Of a stretch of DNA of 64,000 nt, positions 3,863 through 54,700 are shown in pieces. The stretch is from contig JADLSH010000375.1 of assembly GCA_016169945.1 (NCBI GenBank), forward strand, positions 1,374,501 through 1,438,500. The letters run 5' to 3'. The stretch comes from Trachythela sp. YZ-2020. Taxonomy: Eukaryota > Cnidaria > Anthozoa > Malacalcyonacea > Clavulariidae. The position numbers and the translations under genes were made by a program. The notes beneath the pieces are model-generated. The model was not told the DNA's origin. It saw only the letters and a program-made list of their open reading frames with translations, and did not search any database. Each line of letters starts with the position of its first letter. Position 1 is the stretch's first letter.

Positions 3863-3957
<95 letters not shown>
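3863..3957. repeat. (TAG)n / (CTA)n microsatellite, 3' tail of LINE-C
   Basis: About 31 uninterrupted copies of a trinucleotide. On the minus strand it directly follows AATAAATGCTACTAC, so it is the 3' tail of LINE-C. It makes long artefactual poly-Leu, poly-Thr and poly-Tyr reading frames that are not genes. Confidence 0.9.
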
Positions 3958-4080
3958 CATTTATTAGCCACTCCCCAAAAGGGCTTTTCAGTGAACTATT
4001 ACAAGTTTGAATCATTAGTTAATTTAGTTACTATTTTTACAAAATTGTTAATATGTTAATAAGTTCTACAATATTTAAAA

Positions 4081-5000: not shown

Positions 5001-5034
5001 GGTCGGAAAGATGATTTTCAATTCTAACGGATGA

Positions 5035-6364: not shown

Positions 6365-6834
6365 AATTCTTCATGAAATACTTCCTCATACTTATCAAGT
6401 AACTCATCAACTTTGACTGAGGTTGGATTGCCCTCTTTCAACTGGAATAAATTCTTCCAATTTATTTTAATCTTTTGGAGCCAATTTCTACCATTTAAGT
6501 TAGGGCCCTTCCCTGTTATGACCAGTAAAGGCAATACCCCTTCTTGATCTTCATACTTCACAGTGGTCTCAACCAGACCCAACACTTTAACTTGCTCTCC
6601 AGTATAGGTATTAAGTCTTACCTTTGATTCCTTCAGCTCAAGGTTCGGATGTTTCTTCTTCAGTGATGTGTATGTATCCTTGTTCATTACGCTCAATGCC
6701 GCACCAGTGTCTACTTCCATCTTCAGGCTTTCATCGCTCACCTGAACATTAACAACATATGGCTCGGGTCGTCCTTCGCCCAGACTATAAATCGCATAGT
6801 TGTCGTCTTCCTCTTCGCTCTCCTTGTCCTTCAC
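6361..6834 (-). pseudogene. Gypsy-1 aspartic protease region
   Basis: A continuous 157-codon block contains MEVDTGAALSVMNK. DTGA is the active-site loop of retroviral-type aspartic proteases. The 'KVLGLVETTVKYEDQEG' and 'GRNWL' segments that follow are usual for Gypsy polyproteins before reverse transcriptase. Confidence 0.8.
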
Positions 6835-6889
6835 ATTTAAATAGTTACTGCTAGTTCCCGAGTTTGGGTTATCGATTCGTTGGTTTCTC

Positions 6890-7574
6890 CCAGTCGCCTT
6901 AGGTTTACTTCGACATTTTCTTGCTATGTGTCCCTTCTTTTTACAAAGGAAACACTCAGAGTCGCGAAATTTGCATTGCCATTGTTGTGGTTCATGTTTA
7001 CCCCCACACCGTCCACATTCGGTCTTTGATTCTTGTTGGTTTCTTTGTCATTGATTGTCTACACGGTTTAATGTCGACGGTTGCTCTGTATTTACATTTG
7101 CCTTGGCCATCCGATGTGTCAAATCTCTTGCATTTTTAATGCAGTCTCCATTGATGTAGCTATTTTATGCGTGTTTTCAACTTTCTGCTAACAATCTACG
7201 CTGAATTTGTTCGTCATTTATTCCACACACCAACCGATCACGTAACATCTCTTCTAAAGTATTCTTTAAATCACAATGTTCTGAAATGCTCCTTAATTCA
7301 GCTACATACGAAGCAATTGACTCACCTGGTTTCCTGAACCGAGTATTAAACTTGAATCGTTGCATGTTGATGCTGTTGTACAAGTTCTACCAGCTCCGTA
7401 ATTAAACGTTTTGTCTGACGGTTTTTCTAGCGTCGTTAAGTTCCGAATCAACTTGTACGTCTTGTTACCACAAACGCTCAATAATATTGCTCGTTGTTTA
7501 TTTGCGTTGTCCACGCCATTTGCTTCGAAAAAATATTCCAACCGCTCTATATACTGACTCCATTTTTGTCTCAC
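6890..7574 (-). pseudogene. Gypsy-1 gag with two CCHC knuckles
   Basis: 7574-7302 and 7383-7177 are two overlapping frames of one gag (WSQYIERLEYFFEANGV, then RFKFNTRFRKPGESIASYVA and RLVCGINDEQIQRRLL), joined by a frameshift near 7385. Downstream, at about 7010-6890, the minus strand encodes CGRCGGKHEPQQWQC and CFLCKKKGHIARKC; the second is a perfect C-x2-C-x4-H-x4-C nucleic-acid-binding knuckle. Confidence 0.8.
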
Positions 7575-8727: not shown

Positions 8728-9799
8728 ATGGCTAAAAAAGCTTCCAAAAAAGTATCTTTGGAACATTCCCTCAAATTAGGGCTGCATACCAACTGTCAAA
8801 AATTCGAGGGACAAGGCTTTTAGAAATATTTCCCCAGTATTCTAAAGCTGTAATAATTATATAAGCACGCCAAGAAGCCTCTAAATGGTCAGGCTGTTTT
8901 TGATAAAAGAAGGCAGGCCAACAAAGTTATCTCTTCAGAACAAGAGAAGTATAATGCGCGCGGTCAAAAGTCTCCGAGAGAAAGAAGGTTCCTTTACGTC
9001 TAAGCGTATTCAACTGGAAAGTGGTGTAAACCATGTAACCAGCCGAACTGTTCGTAATCACTTGAATGAAGATGGTTACTGGTATTTACAGACGAGAAAG
9101 AAAGGTCTTCTTCATGCCAAATATCTAAAATCTAGAGCCAGGTTTTGCAGGAAGATAAGAAAGCAACAACTAGGGGACGAATTCTAGAGAACTGGTATAT
9201 CGTTCTATTTAGATGGGAAGGGATTTCTGTACAAAAGTAACCCTTACGACAAGGCACGTGCACCAGGCGCTCGGCAATGGAGAAAACGAGGAGAGTGTTT
9301 ATAATTTAATTGCACAGCCAAAGGGAAGAAAGAAGGTTGCTTTAATGTAAATGTCATGGTAGCTATATCCTACGGCAAAGGTGTTTTTCTTTGCGAGTAG
9401 TATGATGGGACAATTACGGGGAAAATATTTGCCGCAATTGTTAAGTCATTATTTCGAAAAGCATTTAAAAAATATTCAAACCCAAAGGCGAAAAGGTTTC
9501 TCATGGATGGATGCCCAAGGCAAAATTCCCAGATGGCAATGCGTGCTATTGAGAAAGTGGGTGGAGTATTGTTCAAAATTCCTCCCAGAAGCCCTGACCT
9601 CAATCCATTCTCTAACTGTTCGTTTAAATAATGATGCTATCGAGAAGCAAATAACAAGAGAATCTTTGCGGAATTATCAACTCGGGTAAAAGAAACTACG
9701 CTGAATTTCAGTGCTGAAGAAATTGACAAAATTATTGATAGTATGGACAGAAGGATCACCGCAGTTATAAAAGGAAATGGTCAAAGAACTAAGTATTAG
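8728..9799 (+). pseudogene. Tc1/mariner-like DDE transposase pseudogene
   Basis: The plus strand encodes, with stops and frameshifts, an N-terminal helix-turn-helix part (KEGSFTSKRIQLESGV, VTSRTVRNHLNEDGYWYLQ, 8885-9187). Next come a catalytic-core start (FYLDGKGFLYKSNPYDKA), a middle (LMDGCPRQNSQ) and the PPRSPDLNPIEN box. The C-terminal segment IIDSMDRRITAVIKGNGQ ends at a stop at 9799. The order and the SPDLNPIEN motif are diagnostic of Tc1-like transposases. Stops near 8830, 9185 and 9300 make it inactive. Terminal repeats were not found. Confidence 0.85.
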
Positions 9800-10262: not shown

Positions 10263-11500
10263 TTAGCTTATTTCACCCATGAGTACAAGCTCAGCGAAAC
10301 ATTCTGAGCAGGGTGCCACATTCTTTTGCTCGTTTTCTGGGATGCTGTGGGATAGATGTGCACACTTTCCATCTGGATGCCATACTTTCATCCTCACTTT
10401 GATCTTGTGAGTTATAATTGCCTCTGTATTTGATGATAGTAATGATACTCTTTGAAGTGGCGAATACAGGAGTGTCCTTATCAATGGAAACATCCGTGCT
10501 GAAATGATTCTTCGGGGCTGGAAATTTTACTAGATCTCCTTCCAACAACAGTAAGAAGCTTTTCCATTCTATCAACTCTTTGCTCCATCGAAAATCATTC
10601 AACAAAATAATTTCTGCATGGTCGGCTCCAACCCAAGCATACTTGTCCGCTGCTGGGTTTGAAAAGGTCGTGAAAATCAACTCTAATGGCTTCTGCAGGA
10701 ACGTTTTACCACAGTTTGTTGGGCCAACTATGATAATGTTCCGGTACTTCCCTCTCCCTAACAATAACAGCTCTCTCACAGCGGCAGCAAAAAATATCGA
10801 ATGAACTTTATTGTTTATGAGCACTTCTTTAGCACACTCTAACCATCTCCCTTCACAAGCTGTTGCACATTCACCGTTGACCGCCTTTCGTATCGAAGCC
10901 TCCTTCATCTTCCAGGTTTGCTGGATAAGGTCGTTTAGGCTCTTCGAATTTCGTGACAGCACAAAATATGCAAGATCTTTCTTCTCTTCTTCGTTTTGCT
11001 CATTACCAATAGCTAAAAGTTCAGTTTCAGACTTGATCTGGTTTTTCACTATATAATCAGCCACCTCTAAGTTGGAAAGCTTTCTCTTCCTTTTATAGAG
11101 GTTGTCGATCCTTGAGCAGAATTCTCCTCCGATATCTTGTCACAGCGCCTTTTGCGGTAGGATTGTTGACATCGCTTAATTCGTTCTTGGGGAACCAACC
11201 TCATCTATATTTGGGTGCCATGTGCTGTGGTAAATCATATCATCGTCTTTCTTGATATACTGATAGGCAGTATAATAGCCATCGTGATCTGAGAAATTGA
11301 CAACTATACCGTGTTCCGTTTCAAGAGATATTTTACCTTCTAGCCATCTTTTTAGGCCACTGAGCTTCAAGGCTACATGGTAGTGATAACCACCGAGTGC
11401 CATCCGAATGCCTTTCCAAGCAGCATGTCCAGTGCTGTGGAACGACTTTGCTGCACTTCGATGTGAATGCGGCGACTACAGCATTAGCAAATGATTCTCT
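10263..11500 (-). pseudogene. Broken HUH endonuclease / superfamily-3 helicase (Rep/NS1-like) gene
   Basis: The minus strand first encodes a segment with GGYHYHVALKL, an H-Y-H metal-binding motif of HUH nucleases, followed by YTAYQYIKK, which fits the catalytic-tyrosine motif (11403-11176). After frameshifts near 11410 and 11100 comes a helicase part (11064 onward) with the Walker A box GPTNCGKT. ILLNDFRW serves as Walker B, with FATSK further on, as in SF3 helicases. A further frameshift near 10440 leads to a Cys/His-rich end (CAHLSH...CSECF) and a stop at 10263. HUH plus SF3 is the layout of parvovirus NS1 and CRESS Rep proteins, and similar Rep-like genes occur in cnidarian genomes. This copy cannot make the full protein. 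Whether it came from a virus or a Rep-encoding mobile element is open. Confidence 0.7.
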
Positions 11501-16171: not shown

Positions 16172-19100
16172 TCACCAATTTTGAAATTCAGCAAATTCAT
16201 TCGTGAATAATCGAAGCTGTCCGTTGTCTTCAAACAGGCAGTGAAAGAAAAGCTTTTTCTCTACAAATTGTCGTTCACATAGTACACCATACTCTTTTAA
16301 CAGTCCAATAACAATGTTAGAATCAAATGTCTCATAAAGTTCAAGAGAACGGTCGTACAGCTGGAGAGTGTACGTATGCACTTCCTTTGATGGTACGGTA
16401 AGTACTTTTACAATAAACCTGCCATTTCGTGGTGGGCGAAGGCTGAATTTTGGACCAATTTCTTTTGGACCTTCAACTTGTGCCGTAAGATTGTATTCAA
16501 CGCATTTCATGGAAGTGATCAAACAGCTTGACTTCTCACGTAAAACTTTGCATATTTTCTTATGCTTTGACCAATGGTTTTCTTGGCAGGATTTGTTGCA
16601 ATACGCGGCAGTAAAGCACTTTCCACACCTGTTCAGTTTGCACTTCTTACGACAATTTGAGCAATACGGAACGGAGAAATTCAACTTTCCAACGTTCTCA
16701 TCTTCTTTGTTATTGTACACTTCGTTATCTTGGCATTTGGCGGATTGAAGGGAAGTGGTAGACTTCAAATACGACTTCCTCAAATCGTCATTTGTGTGCG
16801 GCGATCCATCTACTTCAAAATCGTTTACTTTCTCCAAAAACCCAGGACCAATATTATCATAAATTATATTCAGTTCGACGACTGATGGAGAAAACCTTTC
16901 CCCTTCAGCTCGATAACCCACACGAACTCCCCCAGCTTTGTTGCGAAAAACTCTATTCATCGATATATTGCACCATGAATTGTCTTGGGACCAAATTCCC
17001 CACGAATCGTTATCAACAACGTTGTTCTCTCTGATGTCCACCTCAGAATTAATCATAAATATTCCAGCTCTAAGACCATTGCCAGAAACGTTATTACGTA
17101 TAAGCATTACATTCTTTGAGTCAATTATACCGATCCCTTCCCGACCATTGTGGTGAATGTCACAATTAATTGCGACACACTTCGATGCTTCAGGTCCTAT
17201 TTTCATCCCAAATAGACCATTATTGTATATGCGACTCCTTTTCACGATCAATGTCCCGCCTCCGAGCACTTGTAACCCAGCTTGCCCATTGTCACAAAAG
17301 GAACAGTCAACAATAACCGCATCGCCTTGTCCAACACATACCAATCCAGCACTGTTGCTGCTTGAAAAATTGCATTGTTCTGCATTCAAATGCCCGCTAT
17401 TTCCAACAGCAGGTAGTTTGTCATCACAAGTCATAAAGTTACAGTTAAGGATTTTGACGACCGAACCAGGCATACAATATACTTCAGCTTTGTCCAAATA
17501 GAATGACAGATTTGTAAGCATGCACTTCAACAAGCAAATGCTATGGTCTAGCTTCAAAGAAACAGAACAATTTTTTCTCGCACCAACTAGAATACAATTG
17601 TTCCAAGGTTCGACAAATGTTCCAACATTGAAGATATATTCTTTTGATCCCAGAACTAAAATCTTTAACACACCCTTTTGTACATCCTTCGAATAAATCG
17701 CTTCTCGGACCTCATCCACAGAATTGCATATTAAAATGCGTTTCTCCGTTTCCAGGAAAGATTCTTTGAAAGGTGGAAATTTTGAAAAAATAGCCCTTTT
17801 GTAATAAAAAGCTAAAGCAGCAGCAATTTCAGCGCCGACTTTCTCATTCAAGCCTTTAAGTGCGAGAGCTTTTCTAGCATAACCCCTCCAGCAATCTGGA
17901 CGACGCGTGATGTAATCATTCGCATCTTTTAAAGCATCTTCGTATCGCTTTAATTTTATGTAAACGGTTGAACGGTTAGTAAGCAACAAGGGATCGGAAG
18001 CATTATTGCAATCTTGAGCAAACTTTATTCCAGAAGAATACGCGTCTAATGCTTCTTTGTAGCGACCTTCTTTAAAACTCTTGTTTCCATCTAATCGTAA
18101 TTTCTCAATTTTCTCTTCCAAATCACGGCGACTAGCCTCAGGACCAGGTTTGTCAGTAAGAGGTTGAAGTGAAACAAAAGGAGGCACACAACATCGTTTA
18201 ATCTCGATCTGAAATGACTTCGGTAAAGGAATAGAAAGTGGAAACAAGGATTTATTTAAAAAATTCTCTTTCACCGTTTCATACTCTGCTAAAGGAAGCC
18301 AGTCTAATACACGATATCCAAAGTTCATAGTGCGTTTTGCTTCTTCCTGTTTATGATTCGCGCTCAAATGAACAGCACATTCGTAAAACATTTTAGCGGT
18401 TTCAGGAAACCACACTGAGTCTAGACAAACAGAGTCGAGAATTGCCAACATATCCTTCAGATTTCTACAAAGATGGTAACCATGCATACACAATTTTGAC
18501 CACATATAAAATTGAGAAGGACTTTTAGGTAAACCAGAGATAGATATATTTTGTTCTTCATAATTCCTTTCATCTAAACTTACAAGATTGCTGGGTGAAG
18601 AACATTTAGAGAATGCATAAGAAAGCATCCGTACAGCATCAACGAAGCCTTGTGCTTTCGATTCTGGATGAAGATTTTCTCTGACTAGTTCCTGAACTAA
18701 ACGATGGGTGCTGACAGAGTGCGCTTCGATATACGTAAAAAGTGAAAAGTCAGTCAACAATCTTAGAACCAGACGGCAACCCAATGGCAATGAGACACAT
18801 TCACGATACGCGACGTCTTCTATTTCTGGTGCTCCAACGTTGACCAATTCTTCTTCTATCTCGTTTGCATTGAAAAATGAACAAGCATTCATAAATCGAA
18901 CAGCAGCCTGGCCGTTCGGGCTCTTCTTCATATACTCCATATTGATAAGCCATGTTGTGTGAACGGCAAGACGTTCTGGTGACTCGTTACCTGGTGATAC
19001 AGGGCGTGCAGATTGCTGCCTCAGTAGTCGCAAGCGTTGAACTTTATATTGTGCCAGGTATGAAGACAAACTGCAACTGAGCGTTTTAATACAAGCTCCA

Positions 19101-19945
19101 GCTTGTTCCAAAGCAAGCGGCAGTCTCCCCAGCTCTTCACAAAGACTTTCTGCGACACTCTGAACATCTTCACAACGATTCACGCCAGTTCTTGAATAAA
19201 GAAATTGCTTTGCTTCTTGAGACTGGAAACATTTCAGCTGAAGACAAGAATCCTCCTCAAAAACTGAAACGTCGTTAACAAGTCGGTTTGGGTTTCGTCT
19301 AGTTAGGGCGACAAAATGTCCAAAGATATTCTCTTGTGAAGCGAAGGAAAGAAATTTCATCACATTGGACGAAAGATCCAGTTGATCCAAGCAGTCGAGG
19401 ACAATAAGACATCGATCATGCGCATTACTGATTTTTCTCAAGGAATTTGACAAAGTTAAATCAAATGAACCAAGCAATGCACCAATCTTTAATGCGATGT
19501 GGTTCACCGTCTTGTCAAGAAACGTATCATCTTCAGCAGAGAACCAATAAACACCTCCCTTGTAGAAATGCTTCATCTGATGAGCATACTCGGAAATTAA
19601 GCTTGTTTTACCAATTCCACCCAAGCCGCATACCGCTGCAAAACGAAGATTTTTTTCGTTCAACGTTTCCCCAACTTTCAAAATGCGTTTAAGCTCCTGG
19701 ATTTCTTCAGTTCGGCCAGCGAAATAACGATTTCGTGGAGGTGCACTGAAAACATAGGGAATATTCTCCTCTTCCTTAATATAACATCTTGACAGTTCAG
19801 TGGTAAATTTCTTCTCAAGAAGTTTCATTTCTTTAGAGTTGTTACTTCCTTGAATTTCGCATTTCTCTACTCTCATGCGCAGATCGTGTATTTCTTCATT
19901 CAAGTTTGACTGTATATTGCTGATATTCGAAAGTATCGTAATCAT
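16172..19945 (-). CDS. NLR-like gene, exon 3 (NB-ARC, TPR, beta-helix, MYND)
   Basis: A 3,774-base terminal exon, intron-free, that begins with ATG ATT ACG after the acceptor TTCTCGTTTTACAG. The open frame extends 75 bases further upstream to 20020, but that part lies beyond the acceptor and reads like intron. The MYND cysteines are in the usual C-x2-C...C-x2-C...YC-x3-C...H-x3-C order (C1332, C1335, C1344, C1347, C1353, C1357, H1365, C1369). The TPR part resembles co-chaperone TPRs (NKSFKEGRYKEALDAYSSGI). Confidence 0.92.
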   Translation of the reverse strand: MITILSNISNIQSNLNEEIHDLRMRVEKCEIQGSNNSKEMKLLEKKFTTELSRCYIKEEENIPYVFSAPPRNRYFAGRTEEIQELKRILKVGETLNEKNLRFAAVCGLGGIGKTSLISEYAHQMKHFYKGGVYWFSAEDDTFLDKTVNHIALKIGALLGSFDLTLSNSLRKISNAHDRCLIVLDCLDQLDLSSNVMKFLSFASQENIFGHFVALTRRNPNRLVNDVSVFEEDSCLQLKCFQSQEAKQFLYSRTGVNRCEDVQSVAESLCEELGRLPLALEQAGACIKTLSCSLSSYLAQYKVQRLRLLRQQSARPVSPGNESPERLAVHTTWLINMEYMKKSPNGQAAVRFMNACSFFNANEIEEELVNVGAPEIEDVAYRECVSLPLGCRLVLRLLTDFSLFTYIEAHSVSTHRLVQELVRENLHPESKAQGFVDAVRMLSYAFSKCSSPSNLVSLDERNYEEQNISISGLPKSPSQFYMWSKLCMHGYHLCRNLKDMLAILDSVCLDSVWFPETAKMFYECAVHLSANHKQEEAKRTMNFGYRVLDWLPLAEYETVKENFLNKSLFPLSIPLPKSFQIEIKRCCVPPFVSLQPLTDKPGPEASRRDLEEKIEKLRLDGNKSFKEGRYKEALDAYSSGIKFAQDCNNASDPLLLTNRSTVYIKLKRYEDALKDANDYITRRPDCWRGYARKALALKGLNEKVGAEIAAALAFYYKRAIFSKFPPFKESFLETEKRILICNSVDEVREAIYSKDVQKGVLKILVLGSKEYIFNVGTFVEPWNNCILVGARKNCSVSLKLDHSICLLKCMLTNLSFYLDKAEVYCMPGSVVKILNCNFMTCDDKLPAVGNSGHLNAEQCNFSSSNSAGLVCVGQGDAVIVDCSFCDNGQAGLQVLGGGTLIVKRSRIYNNGLFGMKIGPEASKCVAINCDIHHNGREGIGIIDSKNVMLIRNNVSGNGLRAGIFMINSEVDIRENNVVDNDSWGIWSQDNSWCNISMNRVFRNKAGGVRVGYRAEGERFSPSVVELNIIYDNIGPGFLEKVNDFEVDGSPHTNDDLRKSYLKSTTSLQSAKCQDNEVYNNKEDENVGKLNFSVPYCSNCRKKCKLNRCGKCFTAAYCNKSCQENHWSKHKKICKVLREKSSCLITSMKCVEYNLTAQVEGPKEIGPKFSLRPPRNGRFIVKVLTVPSKEVHTYTLQLYDRSLELYETFDSNIVIGLLKEYGVLCERQFVEKKLFFHCLFEDNGQLRLFTNEFAEFQNW

Positions 19946-22900
19946 CTGTAAAACGAGAAATATTTGACGGCAATCAATTGTTGCTAATTTTAGATAAGAC
20001 AGCATCGCACAAATGTTCATAGTTTCCGCATATAACCCAACTATTTACGGTCCGCAAACTATGAACTCATCAGTGGCGTCGGCAAGGGGGTGGCCAGGGG
20101 GGGGAGGGCAACTGCCCCAGAGTGCGGATCTATCCAAATCCTATGTAAAAAATCAGCCGTACAATTCAACGTAAAATTTTGACAATTTTATTGTCCAAAA
20201 TACAGTCAATTCTGACGTAATTCTTTTGCGAATTCGCTCCAGAAAACGCCAAAAGTGCAGTCCTCGAACTTCAAAAATATAAAATTCTTCTGGGGAAGGA
20301 CCCCCAGACCCCCGACGTTCGTATTACCATAACTCAGTATTACAATGACAAACAATCAGAAAAAAACCATTACAATTATCACACTTCAGATAAATTTTAA
20401 CATTGGAGTTCAAATTTAACATTTGAGTCCTTTGAAACTCCCTCCCTCTCCACAACCTCCTCCATGCTTCCTCCCTGACACGACATGTCCTGAAGTCCAC
20501 AGTCTGAAAAGTCACAGTCACAGTCTGAAAAGGTACAGTATATTAAATATTGTATGGAAAATCGTTTATGTTTTCGGTTATATATAGTTCTTATATACTT
20601 GAACATTAGTAAGGATTTTTCCGGTTTACCCCCTTGCGCCACTGGAACTCGTCTGACTATACAATACACATACTGTACGAACGATAAGCTTATATTGCCA
20701 TTCAGGACATGGTCAACCATTGGCCACTATTCAGCAAAGTTTGGGACCTAATAAGTCCAGCTTATCATAACCCATATCATGTGCATGGGGGCACATGCCC
20801 ATCCCCAAAGGTTTCTTTCTCTTTTCGCAAGATAAAAACATGGAAAAACATATCTTCTAAAGGTAAATGTACCCCCCATTACCTTCAATATCATTAAGTT
20901 GCTTGACACGCATTTTGGTTTCGACTATTTTTTGGAAGTAGTACTAAAGGATTTGTCAGTCTCTCAACATACACCTACAACAAGAAATATTATAGTTTTC
21001 GAACCTGTTCTTTCTCTAAACTCCATGTCTTGACAGCTTCACAAACTTCGTCAACTTTGCCTCTGAGTAAAGTCAAGATTTCAATGTCGACAGGTTGACC
21101 AAAGCACAACTGCAATCCTGAAATATAATTAAAAAGACTCAAAGAAAATCATTACACTGTGAAAGGCAGCTTATTTCCTGTACTTTCATCTTAACTGCCG
21201 TACCATCCTTACAACTTCTGTAAATTACTTTATAGCCTACGTGAGTTATTTCTATGGTTTCCTCTTTTTCAGTACATCACCTAACACTGATTGTTTTGTT
21301 GCTTAGCTTCATTCATTTCGCATGCAGAGCGCTGAAATGTTGTGCAACCATGATAATATATTTCTTCTTTGATGTTTTCAAAGTGGCGGACACAATAAAT
21401 AGTTGGGAAGTGAACACAGTAAATGGTCGGGTACTGAACCAATTTTAATTACCTAATGGTGAAGCTTTTGTGGAAATCAAAACTACTAGTTTTTGCAAAA
21501 GTGTTAATGAGTACTTAGTATGAAATCAGACCGAGTCGGTTGGTAACTGGTTCAGTGCTAGGTCTACTAACTTCAATTAAAAACAATTGTCACTGTGGTT
21601 TAGTGCTTTAAATTCCATTCTAATTAAATTGCATTCTATATACCAGATTGAGTGTTTACACTCAGATAATCGGCATTAAGGAGTTTTTCCATTTCATAAT
21701 GTATCTTCATTGAGTAGTAAACGTAAGTTTTTGGATTGTTACTATGTTTCTAAATCCACTGATTCTTTTATGCAAGTTTTTACTGTAGTACAAAATTTAA
21801 TAATCCATTAAGTGGCGATACGCCCATGCATTGCCCAGGCAATTAGAAACTAGATTTTGCTTGAACTAATAATAACTGTTAAGCTTTTGATTTACTTGTG
21901 AATTACGACAGATACATTTAATCGACATAAAATATCAAATGAAAAAATATTAAAATATATTATGGCCTTTGACATATTGCACTCCCTTACTCCCATTTTT
22001 AAGGTCAAAGGAGCATGTAGTCGGAGCAAATCTCAATTAGCTCGCATCAGTGGCGGACACTTTCTGAAAAGGCCTGTTACAATCATCAACTATACTTCAA
22101 AAACAATAAACAATAATAGAGAGGTGGGAGATGGCCCACGGGCACGCCCACCAACGCCCACTCCTAGTGTTAGACCTGGATGAAGGCTTATATATGGAGA
22201 CATTGTTGCAATTCATGCATTTGTTTTTTGCATAAAAAGTAATTTAAAAACCATGTGAAAACAACGTTTAAGCATTAAAAGCATTCAAGCATTGACTACT
22301 AATTAATCAAGTGTACAAGTAAACTGCACATCAAACTTTCCTCTTGCAGTAGTACGAGTCTTGCAAAATTGTCATTATTACTCGTCCATATATATAAGCA
22401 CATGCTGGGTTATATTCGAAAGGCCTATATTTGGAGGTTTACGGTAGACAAATCTATGCAATTTCATTACCTTTCTCTTTCCAGCTATTCAGCTCATCAC
22501 ACAATTTCTGTTCATCCTCAGTTGAGAGATTCACATTCTTAAGTAAAGTCTCCATGCGTTGAAAAGCGGCAATAAATTCTGCTTCAGTCCAATTGGCAAA
22601 GTCGCAATGTGCCCACTCGTTTCTGATGTCTGACCGAACTGTCTTTGCATGAGCAGCAGCTCCTATCAATGGCGCAGCTTCACAAATCACTGATAAGATT
22701 GCAGATATATCCATTGTTTGGTCAAAGCCAGTGAACTTGGACATGAATGGTTGAACAAACAACTTTGCCAAAGACAATGGGTCTTTAACTGTATAATCAA
22801 ATGCATGGGGCTTTTTATGGGCATCATTATTGTTGATACTTTTATAGTTAAGGCGTAAAGTTGATGGGTGTAACTCTTTCTGGTGTCCACCATAAACTTG

Positions 22901-30020: not shown

Positions 30021-30502
30021 TCGAGAAACATTTCTATGTATAATATTATAATATTAAATCAATCTCTAACATTGCAAACTACTACAAGCCGTGACATCAG
30101 CGAAGATTTTAGGTCTACGAATACGTAAAGATTTGCCTCTTTCTCAGTATAGGCCTTTTCCAGTTCATCTAGCTGGAAGATTTTTCCACAATTAACGACG
30201 AAATGAATAAACACACTCCACACATAATGAAAACATAATTGTTTTCTCAGTGTTAGTGTAGATTGTTGAAAAATATCCGAAAACGTCGTCACACACACAC
30301 GACACAGCTAACCATACGAAATGAAAACAATTGGAACAGGTCTCGTGTTCACAATCAATATTAAGGTCACATGCATGCAATCAATATCAGTTATTCGAAA
30401 TGCCAAAAAGTGCTCGATATCATATAGATAGAGCAAATAATATTATGTAGTTTCAGCCCATGACGTTAGGCTGTAGTGCATGGATACCTTAAGGTAAGCG
30501 AA

Positions 30503-30553
<51 letters not shown>

Positions 30554-30556
30554 AAT

Positions 30557-30600
30557 CTGCAGACATGCATGTTTCGCCGTTCAACGGCTCGTCAGTGCAG
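30557..30600 (-). ncRNA. Type-I hammerhead ribozyme motif 1
   Basis: Minus strand: helix I CTGCA/TGCAG, conserved CTGACGA, helix II GCCG-TTGAA-CGGC, conserved GAAA, an 8-nt self-complementary helix III (CATGCATG) and cleavage triplet GTC. All conserved core positions of the hammerhead are present. The 44-base sequence is identical to motifs 4 and 5 but inverted. Confidence 0.85.
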
Positions 30601-30725
30601 CTTGTAACGCAGTCTAGATGCGAGTGACTTCGTATTTATACACCATACTCTTGCCATCACCAAGCGCATGTGGTACAATACTCAGACACATGCGCATCCA
30701 GACATGCTGAAGTGTCTTAATATAT

Positions 30726-30905
30726 ATATAGTTAAAATTCAGAGATTCAACAGTTTTGAATAGACATTTTATTACTAGTTAGTTTCGTGCTACACACGTA
30801 TGTGTGGTACTCTTCAGACAAAATGATACATACGTGTGTAGCACGAAACTAACTAGTAATAAAATGTCTATTCAAAACTGTTGAATCTCTGAATTTTAAC
30901 TATAT
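30726..30905. repeat. Near-perfect palindrome, arms about 80 bp
   Basis: The left arm runs from atagttaaaattcagag to cacacgtatgtgt. The right arm is its reverse complement, ending ctgaattttaactatat. The loop is about 20 bases (ggtactcttcagacaaaatg). The left arm plus loop holds hammerhead motif 2. Confidence 0.9.
30765..30825 (-). ncRNA. Type-I hammerhead ribozyme motif 2
   Basis: Minus strand: helix I CATTTTGT/ATAAAATG (8 pairs, one G-U), core CTGAAGA, a long helix II from GTACCACACA to TGTGTAGCAC with two mismatches, core GAAA, helix III CTAACTAG (2-3 pairs) and cleavage triplet GTA. The core matches CUGANGA...GAAA...NUH. Two mismatches in helix II lower confidence. Confidence 0.7.
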
Positions 30906-31065
30906 TATGCTCTGGTTCTCCATTGAGCACTCTGCAAACGGTTTTTACTATATCGTCTATAGTCTATATATATATATATATATATATGAATATAAGTGTC
31001 AAGTTCAAAATCACCGCCGCCAGAGTGCTCAATACCAAGGCAGAGCGAAATAGTAAACAAAATAA

Positions 31066-31191
31066 AGTAATCTATGCCTGCATGAAAAATACATCATTAT
31101 TTGTCACCCGAAACTAAGCTCACTTAACCGCAGAAATGAACTTGTCTCCACTTGCAGACACAGGAAGAAACATTTACTAAGCAATCACTAA
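31066..31191 (+). pseudogene. C-terminal tail of a Penelope-like element protein
   Basis: Open frame encoding [20 protein letters not shown] and then [17 protein letters not shown] before a stop. The 'L--RNEL-S-CRHR-K-LL' pattern is, as I know it, the usual end of the GIY-YIG endonuclease part of Penelope-like proteins. A stop codon directly upstream closes the frame. Without a search this is family recognition only, but the hammerheads just downstream support it. Confidence 0.6.
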
Positions 31192-31309
31192 AAAACAATT
31201 AACAGACACTTATCACAGTTAGCTATGTGTACGTATTTGTAATATGAGTCATCCGTTTTATAGATTAATCCTAATTCAAATTTCTTAGCGTTAAAAAATC
31301 AGTTGCAAT

Positions 31310-31367
31310 ATTCACCTGATGAGTGTGGTAGGCTCGGCTTGCCATACGAAACAGATTTGTAGTGAAT
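31310..31367 (+). ncRNA. Type-I hammerhead ribozyme motif 3
   Basis: Helix I ATTCAC/GTGAAT (6 perfect pairs), core CTGATGA, helix II of 11 pairs (GTGTGGTAGGC / GCTTGCCATAC, a few G-U) with a TCG loop, core GAAA, a two-pair helix III (CAGATTTG) and cleavage triplet GTA. Every core base fits, and the very short helix III is typical of Penelope hammerheads. Confidence 0.88.
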
Positions 31368-31420
31368 TAAAGTTTTAATGAAGTAGTTCGGGTTTGTACT
31401 TTATTTTGTTTTACTATATA

Positions 31421-31464
31421 CTGCACTGACGAGCCGTTGAACGGCGAAACATGCATGTCTGCAG
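31421..31464 (+). ncRNA. Type-I hammerhead ribozyme motif 4
   Basis: Same 44 bases as motifs 1 and 5 (CTGCA, CTGACGA, GCCG-TTGAA-CGGC, GAAA, CATGCATG, TC, TGCAG), on the plus strand, 54 bases after motif 3. Confidence 0.85.
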
Positions 31465-31702
31465 ATTTGACTATATATGCTCCTTCACTTTGTGTTGTTG
31501 AGCACTCTGTGAGGTTAATTGGTGGCTATAAGCTATAATGCAAAAGCTCGCTTCCCTTGTGGTCGTTTGAGCACTCTGGCCCCAAGACACTTCACGCATG
31601 TCTGGATGCGCATGTGTCTGAGTATTGTACCACATGCGCTTGGTGAGGGCAAGAGTATGGTGTATAAATACGAAGTCACTCGCATCTAGACTGCGTTACA
31701 AG

Positions 31703-31746
31703 CTGCACTGACGAGCCGTTGAACGGCGAAACATGCATGTCTGCAG
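31703..31746 (+). ncRNA. Type-I hammerhead ribozyme motif 5
   Basis: Identical 44-base copy on the plus strand, 282 bases after motif 4 and at the outer edge of the inverted block, next to (TA)n. Confidence 0.85.
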
Positions 31747-31780
31747 ATTTGACTATATATATATATATATATATATATGG

Positions 31781-32160
31781 TAAGCATATAAGCGGTCATT
31801 TCTTTCGATACTTGTTACTGCCTGATGATTCGTTCGGTGAATACCTCTTTGTAAAGATTTAACTTTATTGAACAATCCTTCAATCAACTGCGAACTATGC
31901 CTCTATGGAATTTGTTCATTAAAATATATAATTGATAAAGTGTAATCATAAACTTTACCGACGACTTTCCATATACTCCATATGAAATATTTTATGTAAA
32001 TTAATGTATAATCAATACAAAACTTATCTTTACTATAGTAATTTGATTATTCACCCGCATTCGGTACTGACCCGCGTTTTCTACCATGCCGTATTTCGAC
32101 CAAATACGCAAGCGGTGTGACTGCGGGTCGTCCCGTTAGATGGTCACGATAAACTATATA
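31781..32160. other. Intergenic, nothing recognised
   Basis: AT-rich sequence between the Penelope-like remains and the mariner-type miniature element; no gene seen. Confidence 0.4.
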
Positions 32161-32500
32161 CAGGGTGTCCCCCAAAAAGTCCCCCTATAGAAATCACTCT
32201 TTTGTTGTTAAACGCGTGCGTTGTTATACCTCTGGGAATTTAAAATAGCTTCTAAAACGAACAGCAACACAAAAATGTCAAATTACGAATTCGTCTTACC
32301 GTCAGTTCGAGTAAGAATGGTTCAACTGACTACAGAGCAACGAGTATTTGTCGTAACAACTTATACGTCGCGTTAAATTATTTGGACGAAGGGAAGTTGT
32401 AAATACTTCCGCCGTTCATGTACAATTCAATTAAATTCCCAAAGGTATAATAACGCACAAGAGTGATTTCTAAAGGGGGACATTTTTTGGGATACCCTGT
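32161..32500. mobile_element. Mariner-type miniature element with leftover transposase start
   Basis: The terminal repeats are cagggtgtcccccaaaaagt and its inverted counterpart (attttttgggataccctg), flanked by TA on both sides. The arms stay complementary for about 45 bases (cccccta.agaaatcactc). At 32317-32364 the plus strand reads MVQLTTEQRVFVVTTY, the usual start of mariner-family transposases of this type, after which coding sequence is lost. So this is an internal-deletion derivative of a full element. Confidence 0.88.
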
Positions 32501-33280
32501 ATATGGAAACCTGCAGGCTTTAATCATTTGACAAGTTAGCATAATAATATCTGAGATTTTAACGCATAAATGATTTCGAAATGTTGTCAACACGTGTTCC
32601 ATTGTTCTCGAACACGTGTTGCGCCCCTTGACAGTTCTTCTTGTTGCTTTCTGTATCAACTCTTTACATTATATTTATAATACGCAAGAGTCATAAAAAA
32701 GCTTTATTAAGCATCAATCTAACGTCGTTGAAAATAGATTACTTGGTTCAGTTGCACTAAGCTGCGAATAGGTAAGAGTCGTGCTCTTTGTTTGAATTAG
32801 AATATGTATGAATGTTATTGAAAATATGAATATTATTATTGAAATACTTAAAATGTAGATTATTGTAGGCATTATAGCAACGATACTTTTCAGACTATGT
32901 TGAGATTTATGACTCAGGATTAATCTTGGGACTTTAAGGACAAGACTATTTTATAGGAAGCAAATGCATGGATGTGAAATTGCAGCATATATCCCCCCTT
33001 GATGTTTAAATGATAAAAATACTGCCAACCCAAACAATGCCCATGGTCACCATCTTACTTATATTTAATTCTGGTTTGACTAATTTACTGAACGAGAGCG
33101 ACAGCGTGGCAAACCGCAGGTTGCCTTTACTTTTACTGAAAGTAAATTTTCAAGTTATGACAAATTTTAATAAATAGGAATATATTAATGTTTGGTCTTT
33201 TTCTCCCAACACTCCCTGCCCTATACCACCAAATTTGAAAAGAAGGCCACTCTCCCAAAGCTTGTGGGTGCTCCGATCCA
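32501..33280. other. Intergenic, nothing recognised
   Basis: No supported gene. A short foldable acacgtgtt / aacacgtgt pair occurs near 32590-32620. Confidence 0.4.
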
Positions 33281-46100: not shown

Positions 46101-48860
46101 GATGGGTGTTTAGGTAAAACCTTTCAAGTTTTGTATGACTAAACAAAAATATAGGTACTCCATAAAAACAAAGAAATAAGTGTACAGTTTACCCCAAAGT
46201 TTGTCTAGATATCGCAATTTGAATCTTCATAAGTAAAGTAAAAATAACGTGTGCGGAAATTCTCTTCTTTAATGGTTATTTACTTATTTTGATATGCCGT
46301 GTTGTTTTAAGTGCTTTATGAACTATCATGGCAAGTGAATCACTATAAAAATGAAAAATGAACCATTAAAAGAGAAAAGGTTTGCACGATTTACTTGCTG
46401 TCTTTATGGAGGAGATTCAGGTGCGATATCTGGACAAAATTGAGTAAAGCTTGCTGCCACTTTTTTTTATGGGTATTTATATTTTTTCGACAAAACTAGA
46501 AAAATTTAAAGTTGCAGCAACCATCCAGATCAAATTTTAAACTTAAAATCAATGCTGCAAAAAATGTTGCCTGCACACACTGTGGATGTCAATCTGTCCC
46601 AATCTCACTACAACGCACGTCTAGTAAAAGACAAAAATCATTTAAAAAATTTAGAAAATTTAGGTATAAGGAAGAATATATTATACGAATGAGAAAATTA
46701 TATAATGAGGCAATAGTAAAAATATTTTCATGAAGTAAAAATATTTTCATACTTAGGGTAAGACGAATGAGGAAATTTTATCTTTCACGAATGAAATTAT
46801 TCATTTATTTACTCTGTTTATTCAATATTATAATGCAAATGAAACAAAATATATTTGTAAGTTATAACTAAAAAAAAAATTGGATACAACCAGAGTTATG
46901 ACAGATACATAAAATTGTTTAAATAAATAAAAATAAGAAAATGGTAAAATAATTAAATGAAGAATAGATAGAATATGTTCATTTAACGAAAAATTTATTG
47001 TAAAAGACATATTTTACATCCGCCATTTTGTTTGCAACTTTGCATTTAAAAATTCCATCCACCTCATTGTGAAACTAGGATTAAAAAAGCTATACGAACA
47101 CGATACGATTTTGACGTATGGAATTTATGAAAACCCAACCGTGCAATGCAGAGCGTGCAATGGAAAGAATCGTGAGCGTGCAATAGTTCTTAGGAAATTC
47201 TATTTTAACGTCACGTGATCATAATCAACCAATTAAATGACGAGAATCTACTAAGGTGTTATATAATTAAGAATAGCTAACTATATATTCTTCATTCCTG
47301 GTCGTATTTTGCCAGATATTGTAAATTTAAATTTTCCATTAAAACATTGTATAGGCTGTATATTAATCATTAATTAAACTTCTTCACTGCATTGGCTTAG
47401 GAACTATTTAAAAGTATTTCCTCTCATTTCACAGCCACAGTAGGACTTACTAAAACTTTACTAACTCTATTTTCAGTGAAAGGCGGTCACACGGGAGAGA
47501 AACTATCAGCAACAACTCTGATATTCTCATTATCCGTGTTTGCCGTTGTCATCATCGCTGCAGTTGCCCTGGTCATAAAGTGGCTGATCAAAAACCATGA
47601 TGAAACAAAAAATTTACCAAAATCTACAAAACGTAAGCAAATTATTTGATTTATGATATGAAAAACAACATAACTTCGTTGTCTGAATAAAAATAGGCAC
47701 GCAATAGCGTACATTGTGGCGTACATACGAGTATTGAAATGTTTAAAATATCAAATAGAGCAAAATTATTTTTGAACTTCAAAACTGATTTTTGATCAAG
47801 ATTGAATTAAGTCCACCTATCGATTGATAAATGAAAGTTTCACTCCAGAAGATTTTCCATCCCTAGAAACTGTCTAGCAACGATTGAAAATTAAACCAAA
47901 TTGACTGAAAGTTCAACCTTTTGAATAGAGAACTGCAGCTCACACATTAAGCTTACATTCCTTCACTGGGAATTCCAAGTGATCGATTACACCAAATGTT
48001 ATCCTCACACACAAAATAACGCAGTTAGCCTAGACCATTTGCATCATCTTCATGGCAATTGTGAAAATATTCTCCTCCGTACCCATCTAGTCAACTTTCC
48101 CTATCGAACGATAACTGGAGTACCAGGAAACACCAGAACATTCGGCAAAGTGTGGACGGTCTCATTCAGACTGCCTCATGAGATAATTGGTCCGGGGCGA
48201 ACACACGATGTCATAGAAGAAAGTCGTTTGCTCTGGCGACTGCGCCATTGAAGGCAAAGTAAACGACGAACCATCATAGCAACATGTAAATACACCCCTT
48301 TAAAATTTTAAACGCCTAATTATTTTTAAACAGGCTACAAAGGGACAATCTACGTTTCTTATTTACCAGAGAAAAGCACATTAAATAAAATTAACGGAAT
48401 TTACTCGTGGTTGAAATCTCACAATATCGACGTTGTTATTGATCAAATGTACAACGACCCCAAAGTGTACAACTCTCTTGGTCCTAAGCGGTTTGGTGAG
48501 AAATTCTTGGCGCACTCAGACAAAGTCATCATGATGGTTACCCAAGGTTACTTAAAACTATGCTGGTTGGATGACACCGTGGATATTGACTCGGTGCCTC
48601 GTTTTAACTCCTTAAACGAAGAACGGCTCTACAGCGAGGTAACCTACATCAAGAATGAACTAAGCACAACATTAAAGCATGGTCCCATTCGCTTTATCCC
48701 AGTTTTGGTGAACGTGACAGATCATTATTTACCAAAGTGGCTCCAAAAATTGACATCCGTGACATGGCCAGATGATGGGAGAAATAGAGCGTTTTTAAAT
48801 CTTTTGAAAGGTGACGATATGCCTGTTGACACCAAATATGAGGAATTCTCCTTTGCTTAA
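33960..48860 (+). CDS. IL-17-receptor-like membrane protein with cytoplasmic SEFIR domain
   Basis: Coding exons: 33960-34124 (1a) or 35261-35374 (1b), 37137-37179, 37910-37959, 39008-39038, 39240-39377, 40734-40831, 41213-41278, 42724-42790, 44410-44505, 45813-45845, 47477-47632 (or from 47435), 48334-48860. Every junction has AG/GT and all phases agree, giving 489 residues with 1a, 472 with 1b, or 14 more with the longer exon 11. The order is signal peptide, CxxxC motifs, an FN3-like ectodomain (IMWDPPA, GYFVRW), a Thr/Ser/Pro-rich stalk, a membrane segment at about 277-296 (isoform 1a) and SEFIR at about 318-440. In IL-17 receptors SEFIR domains pair with Act1-type adaptors; the ligand here is unknown. 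Repeats in the introns do not disturb the exons. The precise subfamily cannot be told from sequence alone. Confidence 0.85.
34338..34620. mobile_element. Fold-back miniature element in intron 1 of the SEFIR receptor gene
   Basis: The outer arms are agaccactttcataattcag and its inverted partner ctgcattatgaaagtagtct, TA on both sides. The inner arms are gagtttaaatattcttttat / ataaaagaatatttaaactc and extend to 'cttaataagcc'. No coding capacity. Confidence 0.8.
35261..35374 (+). CDS. SEFIR receptor gene, alternative first exon 1b (signal peptide)
   Basis: Starts MALPRSVHMIVLLSLGIKCQ, again a signal peptide. CSYNC (C-x3-C) follows, ending in phase 0 at TCAA|GTAAGA. It has the same length class, cysteine pattern and phase as exon 1a. 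The two can each join exon 2 (DRTKCILGC) in frame, which points to alternative promoters or an exon duplication. Confidence 0.65.
35400..37100. other. Intron sequence, nothing recognised
   Basis: Between exon 1b and exon 2 of the SEFIR receptor gene: AT-rich with GA-rich patches (36135-36180, 36810-36840). Open frames here show no protein features. Confidence 0.4.
37304..37727. mobile_element. hAT-type miniature element in intron 2, perfect 8-bp target duplication
   Basis: The ends are cagggccgtaggcagc and gctgcctacggccctg (exact inverted copies, 16 bases), flanked by atgataat at 37296-37303 and 37728-37735. The interior includes a G tract and the module 'aaatgccatttcctgcgtttt' shared with other elements in the window. 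No transposase. Confidence 0.95.
38731..38874. repeat. Inverted-repeat miniature element, family X copy 1
   Basis: The left end is ggctgttttccacttcaacc, the right end gtttgaagtggaaaacggtc, with accgaaacgtagcgtatttc inside. Lies in intron 3 of the SEFIR receptor gene. A second copy is at 41661-41783. Confidence 0.8.
41661..41783. repeat. Inverted-repeat miniature element, family X copy 2 (left end missing)
   Basis: Shares atcgtaccgaaacgtggcgt and the right end tgtttgaagtggaaaacggc with the copy at 38731-38874, but lacks the left terminal repeat. Lies in intron 7 of the SEFIR receptor gene. Confidence 0.75.
41846..42243. mobile_element. hAT-like miniature element with 'aaagtagga' satellite interior
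   Basis: The ends caggctttctggca and tggcaagaaagcctg are inverted copies. The flanks taaaaaca (41838-41845) and attaaaca (42244-42251) match at 6 of 8 positions, consistent with an aged hAT duplication. The interior near both ends is built from repeated aaaagtaggaaaa units. In intron 7 of the SEFIR receptor gene. Confidence 0.7.
42880..43060. repeat. Repeat with 'cagtggcggaaatt' start and C tracts
   Basis: Starts agcagtggcggaaattaaat and contains aaatttccgacagacccccc. The same phrases recur at 43990-44110 (cagtggcggaaattcacg, aaatttccgacaaaccccc). A dispersed family with unresolved ends. Confidence 0.55.
43137..43330. mobile_element. Harbinger-like miniature element (TAA target duplication)
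   Basis: The arms cgcctgtattctaaaagctc and gagctttcagaatacaggcg are inverted copies that continue into cactcacactc and on to atagctggagggt. Flanks are taa on both sides (43134-43136, 43331-43333). A 3-bp TWA duplication is typical of PIF/Harbinger. Confidence 0.85.
43733..43940. repeat. Fold-back repeat
   Basis: gactttaagatatgctaat...cgtgacgaaaaacagtc is mirrored by gactgttttttcgtcac...aggcatatcttaaagtc, with arms of about 55 bp. It is preceded by 'aagtgccgtccccgattaagcaccg' text, part of a larger dispersed element. Confidence 0.8.
43990..44110. repeat. Second copy of the 'cagtggcggaaatt' repeat
   Basis: See 42880-43060; here the G tract is longer and the element lies just after the fold-back at 43733-43940. 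Confidence 0.5.
44540..44710. mobile_element. Harbinger-like miniature element (TTA target duplication)
   Basis: The ends aggtacgttcacacacagcg and cgctatgtgtgaacgtacct are inverted copies, continuing inward (atttgtc..gccgattt). Flanks are tta on both sides (44537-44539, 44711-44713). It lies 35 bases downstream of exon 9 of the SEFIR receptor gene and leaves the donor intact. Confidence 0.88.
45898..45968. repeat. Degenerate tandem repeat, unit of about 20 bases
   Basis: Four imperfect units of the form tctaataaacgcccc. Related text (taagcaccgcccccgaataagc) occurs at 43705-43730, so it is probably the end of the same dispersed family. Confidence 0.6.
47435..47632 (+). CDS. SEFIR receptor gene, membrane exon with two in-frame acceptors
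   Basis: Acceptors TTTCACAG|CCAC (exon from 47435) and CTATTTTCAG|TGAA (from 47477) are 42 bases apart, in the same phase, and both leave the frame open. The exon encodes LIFSLSVFAVVIIAAVALVI followed by KWLIK, a single-pass membrane segment with a basic stop-transfer end. The donor is AAAC|GTAAGC. Confidence 0.8.
48334..48860 (+). CDS. SEFIR receptor gene, terminal exon (SEFIR domain)
   Basis: Begins GTIYVSYLPEKS (SEFIR box 1, first beta strand). Then come a helix and NIDVVIDQM, KVIMMVTQGYLKLCW (box 2 type), IRFIPVLV and a C-terminal WPDDGRNRAFLNLLKG, ending at TAA. The fold pattern and length (about 170 residues) suit SEFIR rather than classical TIR. The acceptor is TTAAACAG|GCTAC. No AATAAA was seen within about 400 bases downstream. 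Confidence 0.87.
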
Positions 48861-51280: not shown

Positions 51281-51323
51281 GGTAAGGGTGGCGGTTAGGG
51301 TGGGGGTTAGGGTGGGGGTTAGG
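51281..51323. repeat. Telomere-like G-rich tandem repeat
   Basis: Three units of the 12-base ggttagggtggg type, containing ttaggg. It has four or more G runs on one strand and so could form a G-quadruplex. Confidence 0.75.
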
Positions 51324-51751: not shown

Positions 51752-54700
51752 TTATTCAATTTCCAGCACAAGTTTTCCTTGAGCAGAACCTTCTATTATT
51801 TCTTTATGAGCTTTAGGTGCATCTATCAGTTTGAATGTTTTACCAACTATTGGTTTTAACGATCCATCCTCTGCCCATTTCTCAAACTTCGTTACTGCTT
51901 CTTCAATTTCACTCTACCAAAATATAGAAAATCTTGTCAAAAATTTAGGCCGAAGAAAGCTTGACATCGCATACATCATTGACGTAGAGGTTTGTGGAAT
52001 TCGCTAGCTAATGACGAGAGAGATTCGAAGAAAATAGTTTATTTCAAAAAAGTCTTAAAGACAGTTAAATTTTAAATAGAATTATGCAATAAAGAGAGTT
52101 AACAGATGGCAATGGGTGTGAGTGTGTATAGGGGCCTGGAGCAGATCGCGTGAGTGATGTCATCATACTTAAATAAGCTTAGCCTTGGGCTGACTTGTGT
52201 TTATCTGTCATACTACATGTAATATCTCATAGATTCTAGCGGGAAAGAACCAGAAATCATATTTTCTAGCAATGTTTACAAAGTATGGCAACGGTTTGTC
52301 AGCAAAGGCAGCATCGCAAAGTACAAGATGAGAACCGTTACTCACTTGAGAAGCTTTAAACAGCAATACACCAATAATACTAGATTCCTTCATCATCATT
52401 AAGCGTGGATTTATTTCAATTGAACCGCGGTTTCCAACAACCTAAAATATTTTATGAAGATCTTAAAAAGAACATGCATATTATGCTATTATACTGCATG
52501 ATTAAAAGTGTATTTGAATAATAGTTGATGGTGTTTGTGGATGGAATATTCGAACGAAAATTTAGGGCCTGTTTACATGGAGGTAGGGTGACCCTAGCAG
52601 AAGGGTTACCCTACTAAGCGGGTTACCCTAGTCTATTGTGTTTTCGCATTGCGTTTACATGCGCGCTATACAAGCAGATAGGGTAACCCTGGCGGAAGAG
52701 CTATGTTTTTGTTTGCATAATCCATGTAAAGGCGTTAAGACTCTTTTCCACTCGTCGCAAAAACCAACTCGCAAGCTCGCTGCGAGTACTTTCATCCAAT
52801 CACAATGCTCGACAGTTTATTTCAATTACATGCAAGAACTCGCAGAGAGTTTGCGAGTTGGTTTTGCGATGAGTGGAAAAGAGCCTTTAGGTAGGGTTAC
52901 CCTACCAAGCGGGTCATGTATTATTTCCTCTGACTATCAAACTGGAGAATATTTTAATATGCCTTGATGCAATTATTTACAAAGTAGAAGACCACAGCGT
53001 TGAAATACACAAGGAACAATAAAAATTGTCGCCAAAATTTTGTGTACGCAGGAGTTTGAATACAGCCAGCTTAGCAACCACGCTTAACTAGGGTCACCCT
53101 ATCCAGGCAATATAGCCCTATCTGTAGGATGACCCTACCTCATGTAAACACTCGCTATTTTTTTACCCTCCTGGTAGGGTCACCCTACCTCCATGTAAAC
53201 AGGCCCTAATATACATTTTTAGACCTAGCCAGGAGCAGTTACGAAAAATGCAACCTTAGGCCCTCTGGCAGGAATCGAACCTGCGACCCTGCGATTCCGG
53301 TAAATGTGCAAAATGCGTTGTGTAAACAATAATTATTAATCGGAGAACGTTTTTTTTCTGCCATTATTAAGGATTCATGATTTTTGCACATATTTAAAAA
53401 AATTCACCGAATTGGTACTGAATTGCATTTTTTGGCATGGTATTACAGTAACATGCACTGCTCTCAGCCAATCAGAATGGAAAATTTCTTCGTCTATATT
53501 ATTACAGTATTAACATTGCAATACTATACACACTGTGTAAGGAGATACTCTTACCCCTATTCTGCCATGGTCAGCCACAATTTTCATGTCGTTCTCCAGG
53601 TTTACATTGGCCAGATTTTCCAGAATGACATCAGCTCCTCGGTTTTCAGTAGCTGCCTTATAGAAAAAGTATATATAATTATGATAAGAATGGATTTAAA
53701 CTGCAACTGTCATGAATTCAAAGAATCATCTAATTATCCAATTTTAGGCTTATGGTGACAGTGGTACTTCAATATCTTCACGAACGACCAGAATTTAGCA
53801 ACGAATGCCTTGGAAAGGTTTATTAAACTTTTATTGTACAATGAAATAAACCGTATATGGATCTGTGTGGGAAATAGTAATTCATAGAATGAGAATGAGA
53901 AGTGACAAGAGCTTGGTAAGAAAAGTGAGATATAAACAGCAATCCTTACCATAACTTTATCTAAATAACCGTTTTCCTTGTGACTAAACACTTCGTGAGC
54001 CCCAGCATCCTTAACCACCTGACTTCCTAGGTTGCTTCCTGCAGAACCAAGGACACGCATCCCGTGAGCTCTAGCAAGTTGTACTGCTGCTACACCAACC
54101 TTTAGAATATAAAATTCTCAAATGAATATTAGGTATATGCTAGTGTTCCAAAAAGTACTACTCGGTGTTTGATGTAGTCTAACCTGAATATGAGTCTACA
54201 CGAAGGCCGGTGTAACAGGAAATATGCCCCCCCCCTGGGTCAAACTTCCTAGGAAAAATGGCCGCCCGGGGGCCATCATATTTCCTAGGAAATTTGCCCC
54301 CCTGTAATATACTGTAATATATGCTAAATAGAAGCATAATTATGCGTAATTAGGGTCCAGTACTCCAGTCTCCTGTTATATATAAGGAGTCAGCCATCTT
54401 GTATTTGAGTAGTTCTTGTACAAATTTCATAGTGATTAGAATCCATTGCAATCTAGCTTTAATAAAATACATCCAACAGTATTACATGGTGGCAGTGGTA
54501 GGATAAAGTCTATAATGGCTGAATTTCTAGCTTTAAATAAACCGCCAGTTCTAGTAATGGATATAAAAGCTAGTGAAAATTGGAAACGATTTAAACAGAA
54601 ATACGAAGTTTATAGTGTCGCCACTGGTGTCAAGGAGAAGTCAAAGAAAATTCAAGCTGCAGTACAGAAAATTTTGATGGGAGACGAAGCAGTTGAGAAG

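Follow-up and report, generated by a model that had tools for sequence, protein, structure and literature searches.

The block at 30557-31746 of the window, by which we mean the whole 64-kb stretch of DNA that was analysed, is probably a cluster of small non-autonomous elements resembling the animal retrozymes, which have landed repeatedly in (TA)n sequence. The block holds five hammerhead motifs of three families, in a repeat layout with a constant 3' end and in contact with TA tracts, and the layout of one family is found again at a second locus in the same genome. Cleavage of the RNA, its circularisation, the enzyme that would copy it and the priming of that copying are put forward below as predictions. 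The retrozyme-like reading draws on two loci in one organism, one of them chosen for the feature.

Hammerhead motifs of three families

A hammerhead descriptor gives 5 sites in the 64 kb, all within 30557-31746, and the presence of the five motifs in the original prediction is thereby confirmed. They include, as had been claimed, three identical 44-mers with one of them inverted, and two distinct hammerheads with CUGAUGA and CUGAAGA cores.

30557..30600, minus strand: hammerhead A, copy 1; predicted cleavage between 30562 and 30561
30765..30825, minus strand: hammerhead C (CUGAAGA); predicted cleavage between 30773 and 30772
31310..31367, plus strand: hammerhead B (CUGAUGA); predicted cleavage between 31361 and 31362
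31421..31464, plus strand: hammerhead A, copy 2; predicted cleavage 31459/31460; this is the 5' end of the HHR-282-HHR element
31703..31746, plus strand: hammerhead A, copy 3; predicted cleavage between 31741 and 31742

Family A is the 44-mer, with three copies in the window, and families B and C have one hammerhead each, making three families where two had been proposed. At all five sites the core is CUGANGA...GAAA...UH and, as in type I hammerheads, helix I is the open-ended one, the other two helices being closed. The layout of helix III is common to all five, being GAAAC-N6-GUH with an A-U pair, a C-G pair, a third pair and a loop of four bases, and helices I and II vary among the three families. 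Hammerhead B has 11 pairs in helix II, and the window hammerhead C has 8 pairs in helix I and two mismatches in helix II. The suggestion that these are type I hammerheads in which helix I is paired through different bases is supported.

The strict form of the descriptor requires a CUGANGA core, 3 or more contiguous pairs in each of helices I and II, and 2 or more in helix III. It finds 4 of the window sites, all but that of family C, where 100 Markov-1 sequences give a mean of 0.07. A relaxed form that allows mismatches in helix II finds 5, against 0.0625 in 400 Markov-1 sequences, and for the same 400 the expectation falls to 0.0025 when helix I has at least 7 pairs. Viral contigs totalling 849,354 bases, made up of stretches matched by the GCTC-N-TTGAGCACTCTG pattern discussed below, contain 2 weak sites by the relaxed form, each with 3 pairs in helix I. 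A regular expression for the core (CTGANGA-N8..40-GAAACN6GTH), which does not require pairing in helix I or II, has 8 matches in 354 kb of the same genome, and all 8 have at least 5 contiguous pairs in helix I.

With regard to Rfam, a check that had been set beforehand as a possible refutation gave no window match at the gathering score. Under permissive filters the best hammerhead-type matches in 30400-31900 are at 22.6 bits for RF03152 (cutoff 56.3) and 22.4 bits for RF00008 (cutoff 48.5), scores which are uncalibrated against known small hammerheads, and some of these matches sit off-register relative to the motifs. We give this negative little weight, since the second locus has the motifs again and their pairing is preserved there, cleavage itself being a prediction. 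Some microRNA models match the palindrome and the TA tracts, both of which are hairpins, and were rejected as their scores are under gathering.

In the case of the isolated sequences of hammerheads A and B, and of C from the second locus, the lowest-energy fold differs from the exact hammerhead, and the isolated window C retains helices I and III with the register of helix II shifted. No contacts between the loops of helices I and II are evident by eye, and one family A copy folds with a one-base bulge in helix I. The 282-nt RNA that would lie between two family A cleavage sites folds better as a linear molecule than 199 of 200 shuffles (z -3.0), but as a circle it is unexceptional, with 6 of 200 shuffles reaching its energy.

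Patterns for family A, family B and the TATA block had no match in the viral contig collection, and those for families A and B had none in the genome contig collection. Phages also showed no match. A search of the assembly that contains the window, by a method that passes over very common words, gave 0 candidates even for a query taken from it, which is at most a hint that the copy number is high.

Anatomy of the block and of a second locus

The features of the block other than the hammerheads are as follows.

30493..30499, plus strand: GGTAAGC, left copy of a possible 7-bp target-site duplication, which could be chance
30506..30551: (TA)23 tract, left end
30552..30718, minus strand: inverted family A terminal repeat, pLTR-like, with candidate TATA box, hammerhead and outward 3' end
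30726..30905: palindrome, two family C modules head to head, with 78-nt arms and a 24-nt loop
30909..30934 (plus), 31046-31021 (minus), 31479-31509 (plus) and 31546-31578 (plus): GCTC-N-TTGAGCACTCTG motif
30965..30986: (TA)11 tract, internal
31460..31741, plus strand: 282-nt unit between predicted cleavage sites, the would-be monomer RNA, GC 47.5%
31663..31670, plus strand: TATAAATA, possible TATA box, 40 bp upstream of a hammerhead
31754..31777: (TA)12 tract, right end
31779..31785, plus strand: GGTAAGC, right copy, on the outer side of the right end

The inverted terminal repeat matches 31584-31751 with one mismatch and one gap, and there are two further base differences at the TA boundary. 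The outer inverted repeat as a whole is 30525-30707 / 31596-31778 and is 98% complementary, which corrects an earlier note. There is also a direct repeat of 58 nt, 31421-31478 / 31703-31760, which is identical and has a spacing of 282. The palindrome that had been claimed is present, with arms that are 100% complementary, and its right-hand family C module is truncated within helix II. The inner part at 31018-31075 is oriented opposite to the rest. Inspection by eye was the basis for the ends of the units, for inner orientation and for the lack of duplications within the block.

The three family A copies of the window have a common 3' end point and differing 5' starts, and this is the pattern expected from reverse transcription starting at the 3' end. 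GGTAAGC occurs on the plus strand of the window only as the two outer copies, and once on the minus strand at 34205; TA tracts, and on the left GAACAC as well, intervene between it and the element, and it may be chance. As a TATA box TATAAATA is weak, since the window has 13 occurrences of the 8-mer over its two strands.

The GCTC-N-TTGAGCACTCTG motif may form a small hairpin (GCTC/GAGC) with varying loops, and it spans 30909-31578 in the window and 2140-2239 at the second locus. It has 4 copies in the block and 2 at the second locus, and none elsewhere in 314 kb of the genome. Its matches in viral DNA (95 stretches) were taken as chance without one-by-one inspection, and tRNA-like and hAT-like readings of it were dropped by eye.

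A further 290 kb of this genome, of which 240 kb belong to the contig of the window and 50 kb to five others, contains one more cluster, at 2050-2550 of the stretch that we call L112. Here there are two family A 44-mers exactly 282 apart, so that the layout HHR-282 bp-HHR is repeated, and the suggestion of a retrozyme-like unit is thereby supported. The L112 unit differs from the window unit at 31479-31760 at 2 of 282 positions, and on this sequence comparison family A looks young. At its start, immediately before the first hammerhead, the L112 family A element has (TA)11 and then CAAG, and it finishes in ACTATATATATAAG(TA)6; it has no inverted repeat, and no terminal inverted repeats beyond TA. 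The tandem is partial at both loci, the repeated part being 58 and 64 nt and not a whole second unit. The combination of direct and inverted pLTR-like repeats with a partial tandem is thus found in the window copy only.

L112 also has a family C hammerhead in the opposite orientation, which faces the same TA stretch as the family A element. It has a perfect 8-bp helix II, where its window relative has two mismatches, and it aligns with the left module of the window palindrome from the hammerhead through the TATAT end, with a score of 84 against a maximum of 42 in 300 shuffles.

The block had been described as a Penelope-like repeat with a remnant of the GIY-YIG tail. In a Pfam scan of 30 of the 38 ORFs of at least 30 aa in 30400-31900 we found no such remnant, and no reverse transcriptase plus GIY-YIG gene. 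The matches that were obtained (coronavirus nsp2, YniB, DUF1365, DUF7734 and TUNAR, E 0.016-0.63) are far below the cut-offs and were taken as chance, and the read-through of hammerhead A, used as the query of a protein search, matched nothing. The block may be a Penelope-like repeat, as its outward inverted repeats resemble pLTRs, but those ORFs contain no piece of the gene, and helix III is present.

Elsewhere in the window, broken retroelement ORFs (reverse transcriptase, RNase H, integrase, protease) lie at 302-2689, 3172-7047, 8885-9184 and 54440-58028, and these same four intervals include a Tc3-type transposase helix-turn-helix near the cut-off. There is a MITE-looking inverted repeat at 32156-32504, with 49-nt arms that are 88% complementary and 251 nt apart, and an interstitial telomere-like repeat, GGTTAGGGTGGG, in 3.6 copies at 51281-51323. 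The minus strand at 16175-20044 encodes a 1290-aa protein with NB-ARC, TPR, beta-helix and MYND-finger regions, which has 341 relatives at E of 1e-20 or below, many on shared contigs, as in an expanded NLR-like family. Its top match has 71% identity, and the organisms named among the best 120 of the 341 are Paramuricea clavata and Dendronephthya gigantea, both octocorals, and on this basis the genome is octocoral-like. A TIR-like domain under the Pfam cut-off is at 48330-48857 (plus), and 10294-11139 (minus), which weakly resembles the papillomavirus E1 helicase in a model search (22.7 bits, cut-off 26.5), could be a helicase relic.

TA tracts, the shared 3' end and the origin of the cluster

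There are 13 tracts of (TA)6 or longer in the 354 kb, and 5 of these touch the two clusters, which together come to about 1.8 kb. As the window was chosen for the feature, the unbiased evidence is that of L112, where the cluster touches 2 of the 7 tracts that the 290 kb outside the window contain. The elements share a TA-rich 3' end, mostly TTTNACTATAT, which lies about 10 to 50 nt past the predicted cleavage site and runs into TA sequence. TTTNACTATAT follows the ribozyme in 6 of the 8 hammerhead copies of the window and L112; in the other two the exact sequence is absent, copy 1 of family A in the window having TTTGTATATA and the L112 family C having CAATATAT. In the 64-kb window TTTNACTATAT occurs 7 times, 6 of them in the block, where a Markov-2 model of the region gives an expectation of 0.11, and 8 of its 12 occurrences in 314 kb of the genome are in the two clusters. 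Among the papers listed in searches on retrozymes and microsatellites, on Penelope, hammerheads and TA microsatellites, and on octocoral hammerheads, we found nothing on a link to TA.

In the reading that we prefer, the two hammerheads of the family A element "HHR - 282 bp - HHR" would excise a 282-nt RNA, which a host ligase could circularise. A reverse transcriptase acting in trans, Penelope-like or of a LINE, would then copy the RNA where a TA tract is nicked, starting with the TA-rich end, and insertions made in this way would agree at the 3' end and vary at the 5' end. The ACUAUAUAU stretch would be what is copied at the nicked tract, and events on both strands would give the outward-facing layout. 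If TA tracts are the landing place, different families will accumulate in one tract and in both orientations. Linear read-through from a tandem donor, with inserts starting near the start predicted from TATAAATA, would also fit.

Several other explanations have to be weighed. It is unlikely, though deserving of attention, that the block is a deleted Penelope-like element, its repeats being hammerhead-bearing pLTRs and its reverse transcriptase and GIY-YIG gene having been lost or replaced. Penelope copies are described as often having an inverted pLTR, partial tandems, palindromes at head-to-head junctions and short duplications (PMC3846280), and the account of the purified Anolis Penelope protein has it preferring AT-rich DNA, cleaving and extending both strands and starting inside the RNA, with the hammerhead dispensable for insertion in vitro (PMC11167929). 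However no piece of the gene is present in the 30 of 38 ORFs, and helix III is present here, whereas Penelope hammerheads are described as usually having none (PMC6155905; PMC7761336). L112 also argues against it, and indicates that the short unit is the mobile part, as it has a clean 282-bp copy with no ORF-sized gap and no inverted repeat. The possibility of a composite had been raised with that of a retrozyme-like unit, and in its one-step form, with a reverse transcriptase jumping among RNAs of three families, the strands joined head to head at the palindrome and a single duplication of GGTAAGC, we regard it as improbable. It would account for GGTAAGC at both outer sides, for modules that mostly point outward from the palindrome with TA-rich junctions between them, and for the lack by eye of clear inner duplications. 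Yet the inner part at 31018-31075 is reversed, GGTAAGC may be chance, and at L112 families A and C meet in one TA stretch with the rest of the block absent. Since they meet there also, the mixture of families can be explained by repeated landing in the same kind of target.

The remaining explanations are weaker still. If the outer repeats and the palindrome were the terminal inverted repeats of DNA transposons or MITEs at TA, with the hammerheads as passengers, then long inverted repeats, a perfect palindrome and TA flanks would be as expected, but two copies fit reverse transcription and not cut-and-paste, namely the third family A copy of the window, truncated at its 5' end and sharing the common 3' end, and the one at L112, which lacks inverted ends, and no transposase was found in the block in the 30 of 38 ORFs scanned; we consider this very improbable. 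That the motifs are chance and have no ribozyme function we think scarcely credible, given the null counts from Markov-1 sequences and viral contigs and the copies with pairing kept at the second locus, although the negative Rfam result at threshold and the preference of the isolated folds for other pairings are in its favour.

Returning to retrozyme-like elements landing in (TA)n, we offer a more specific proposal as a speculation that we would not expect to survive in full. It is that ACUAUAUAU is a 3' signal common to retrozymes of different families, which is copied from nicked (TA)n by a Penelope-type enzyme working on both strands from circular or multimeric RNA. If this were true, one mechanism would give inserts of a unit plus a second hammerhead, head-to-head pairs and clusters of mixed families, and ACUAUAUAU would supply the recognition motif that is reported to be missing from animal retrozymes. 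The TA-linked end is possibly general, and it bears on the open question of what primes the insertion of animal retrozymes. With three families that have a common 3' motif and landing place, one of them young-looking, the priming step is testable.

Comparison with known hammerhead elements

The non-LTR retrozymes of animals are described by Cervera and de la Pena (2020; PMC7229834) as units of 150-450 bp with a GC content below 50% in the text and of 45% in the legend to Figure 1C. Section 7 of a 2020 review (PMC7761336) has their repeats without a conserved motif that would reveal the partner enzyme, and seemingly without a promoter. In the proposal of the retrozyme authors primed circular RNA gives cDNA exceeding one unit, with Penelope elements regarded as strong candidates for the partner (PMC7229834; PMC7761336, section 7).

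The elements described here are like the animal retrozymes, as these appear in PMC7229834, in having type I hammerheads whose helix III is short and ends in a tetraloop, a 282-bp unit within the known range of 150-450, a tandem pair of hammerheads, no long ORF, and several families within one anthozoan genome. Their GC content of 47.5% is under the 50% of the text of that paper but over the 45% of its legend. They differ from that description in having a partial tandem and not a full unit. Canonical retrozyme hammerheads have contacts between loops 1 and 2, whereas by eye none is evident here, and the (TA)n ends, the common TTTNACTATAT, the inverted copies and the possible TATA box are further differences from animal retrozymes.

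There is also a resemblance to the hammerhead repeats of newt and axolotl, as given in PMC7229834 and PMC6155905, in the weak helix III and in the self-complementary end, which in family A is ACAUGCAUGU and could pair between two tandem copies. However the newt and axolotl hammerheads are described there as being in long satellite arrays, and here there are only one to two tandem copies.

With regard to Penelope elements, the absence of a reverse transcriptase and GIY-YIG gene among the ORFs scanned, the presence of helix III and a mobile unit of 282 bp set these elements apart. They are nevertheless like the Penelope copies described in PMC3846280 in their inverted and direct terminal repeats, partial tandems, head-to-head palindrome and hammerhead within the repeat, and like the element of PMC11167929 in having an AT-rich target.
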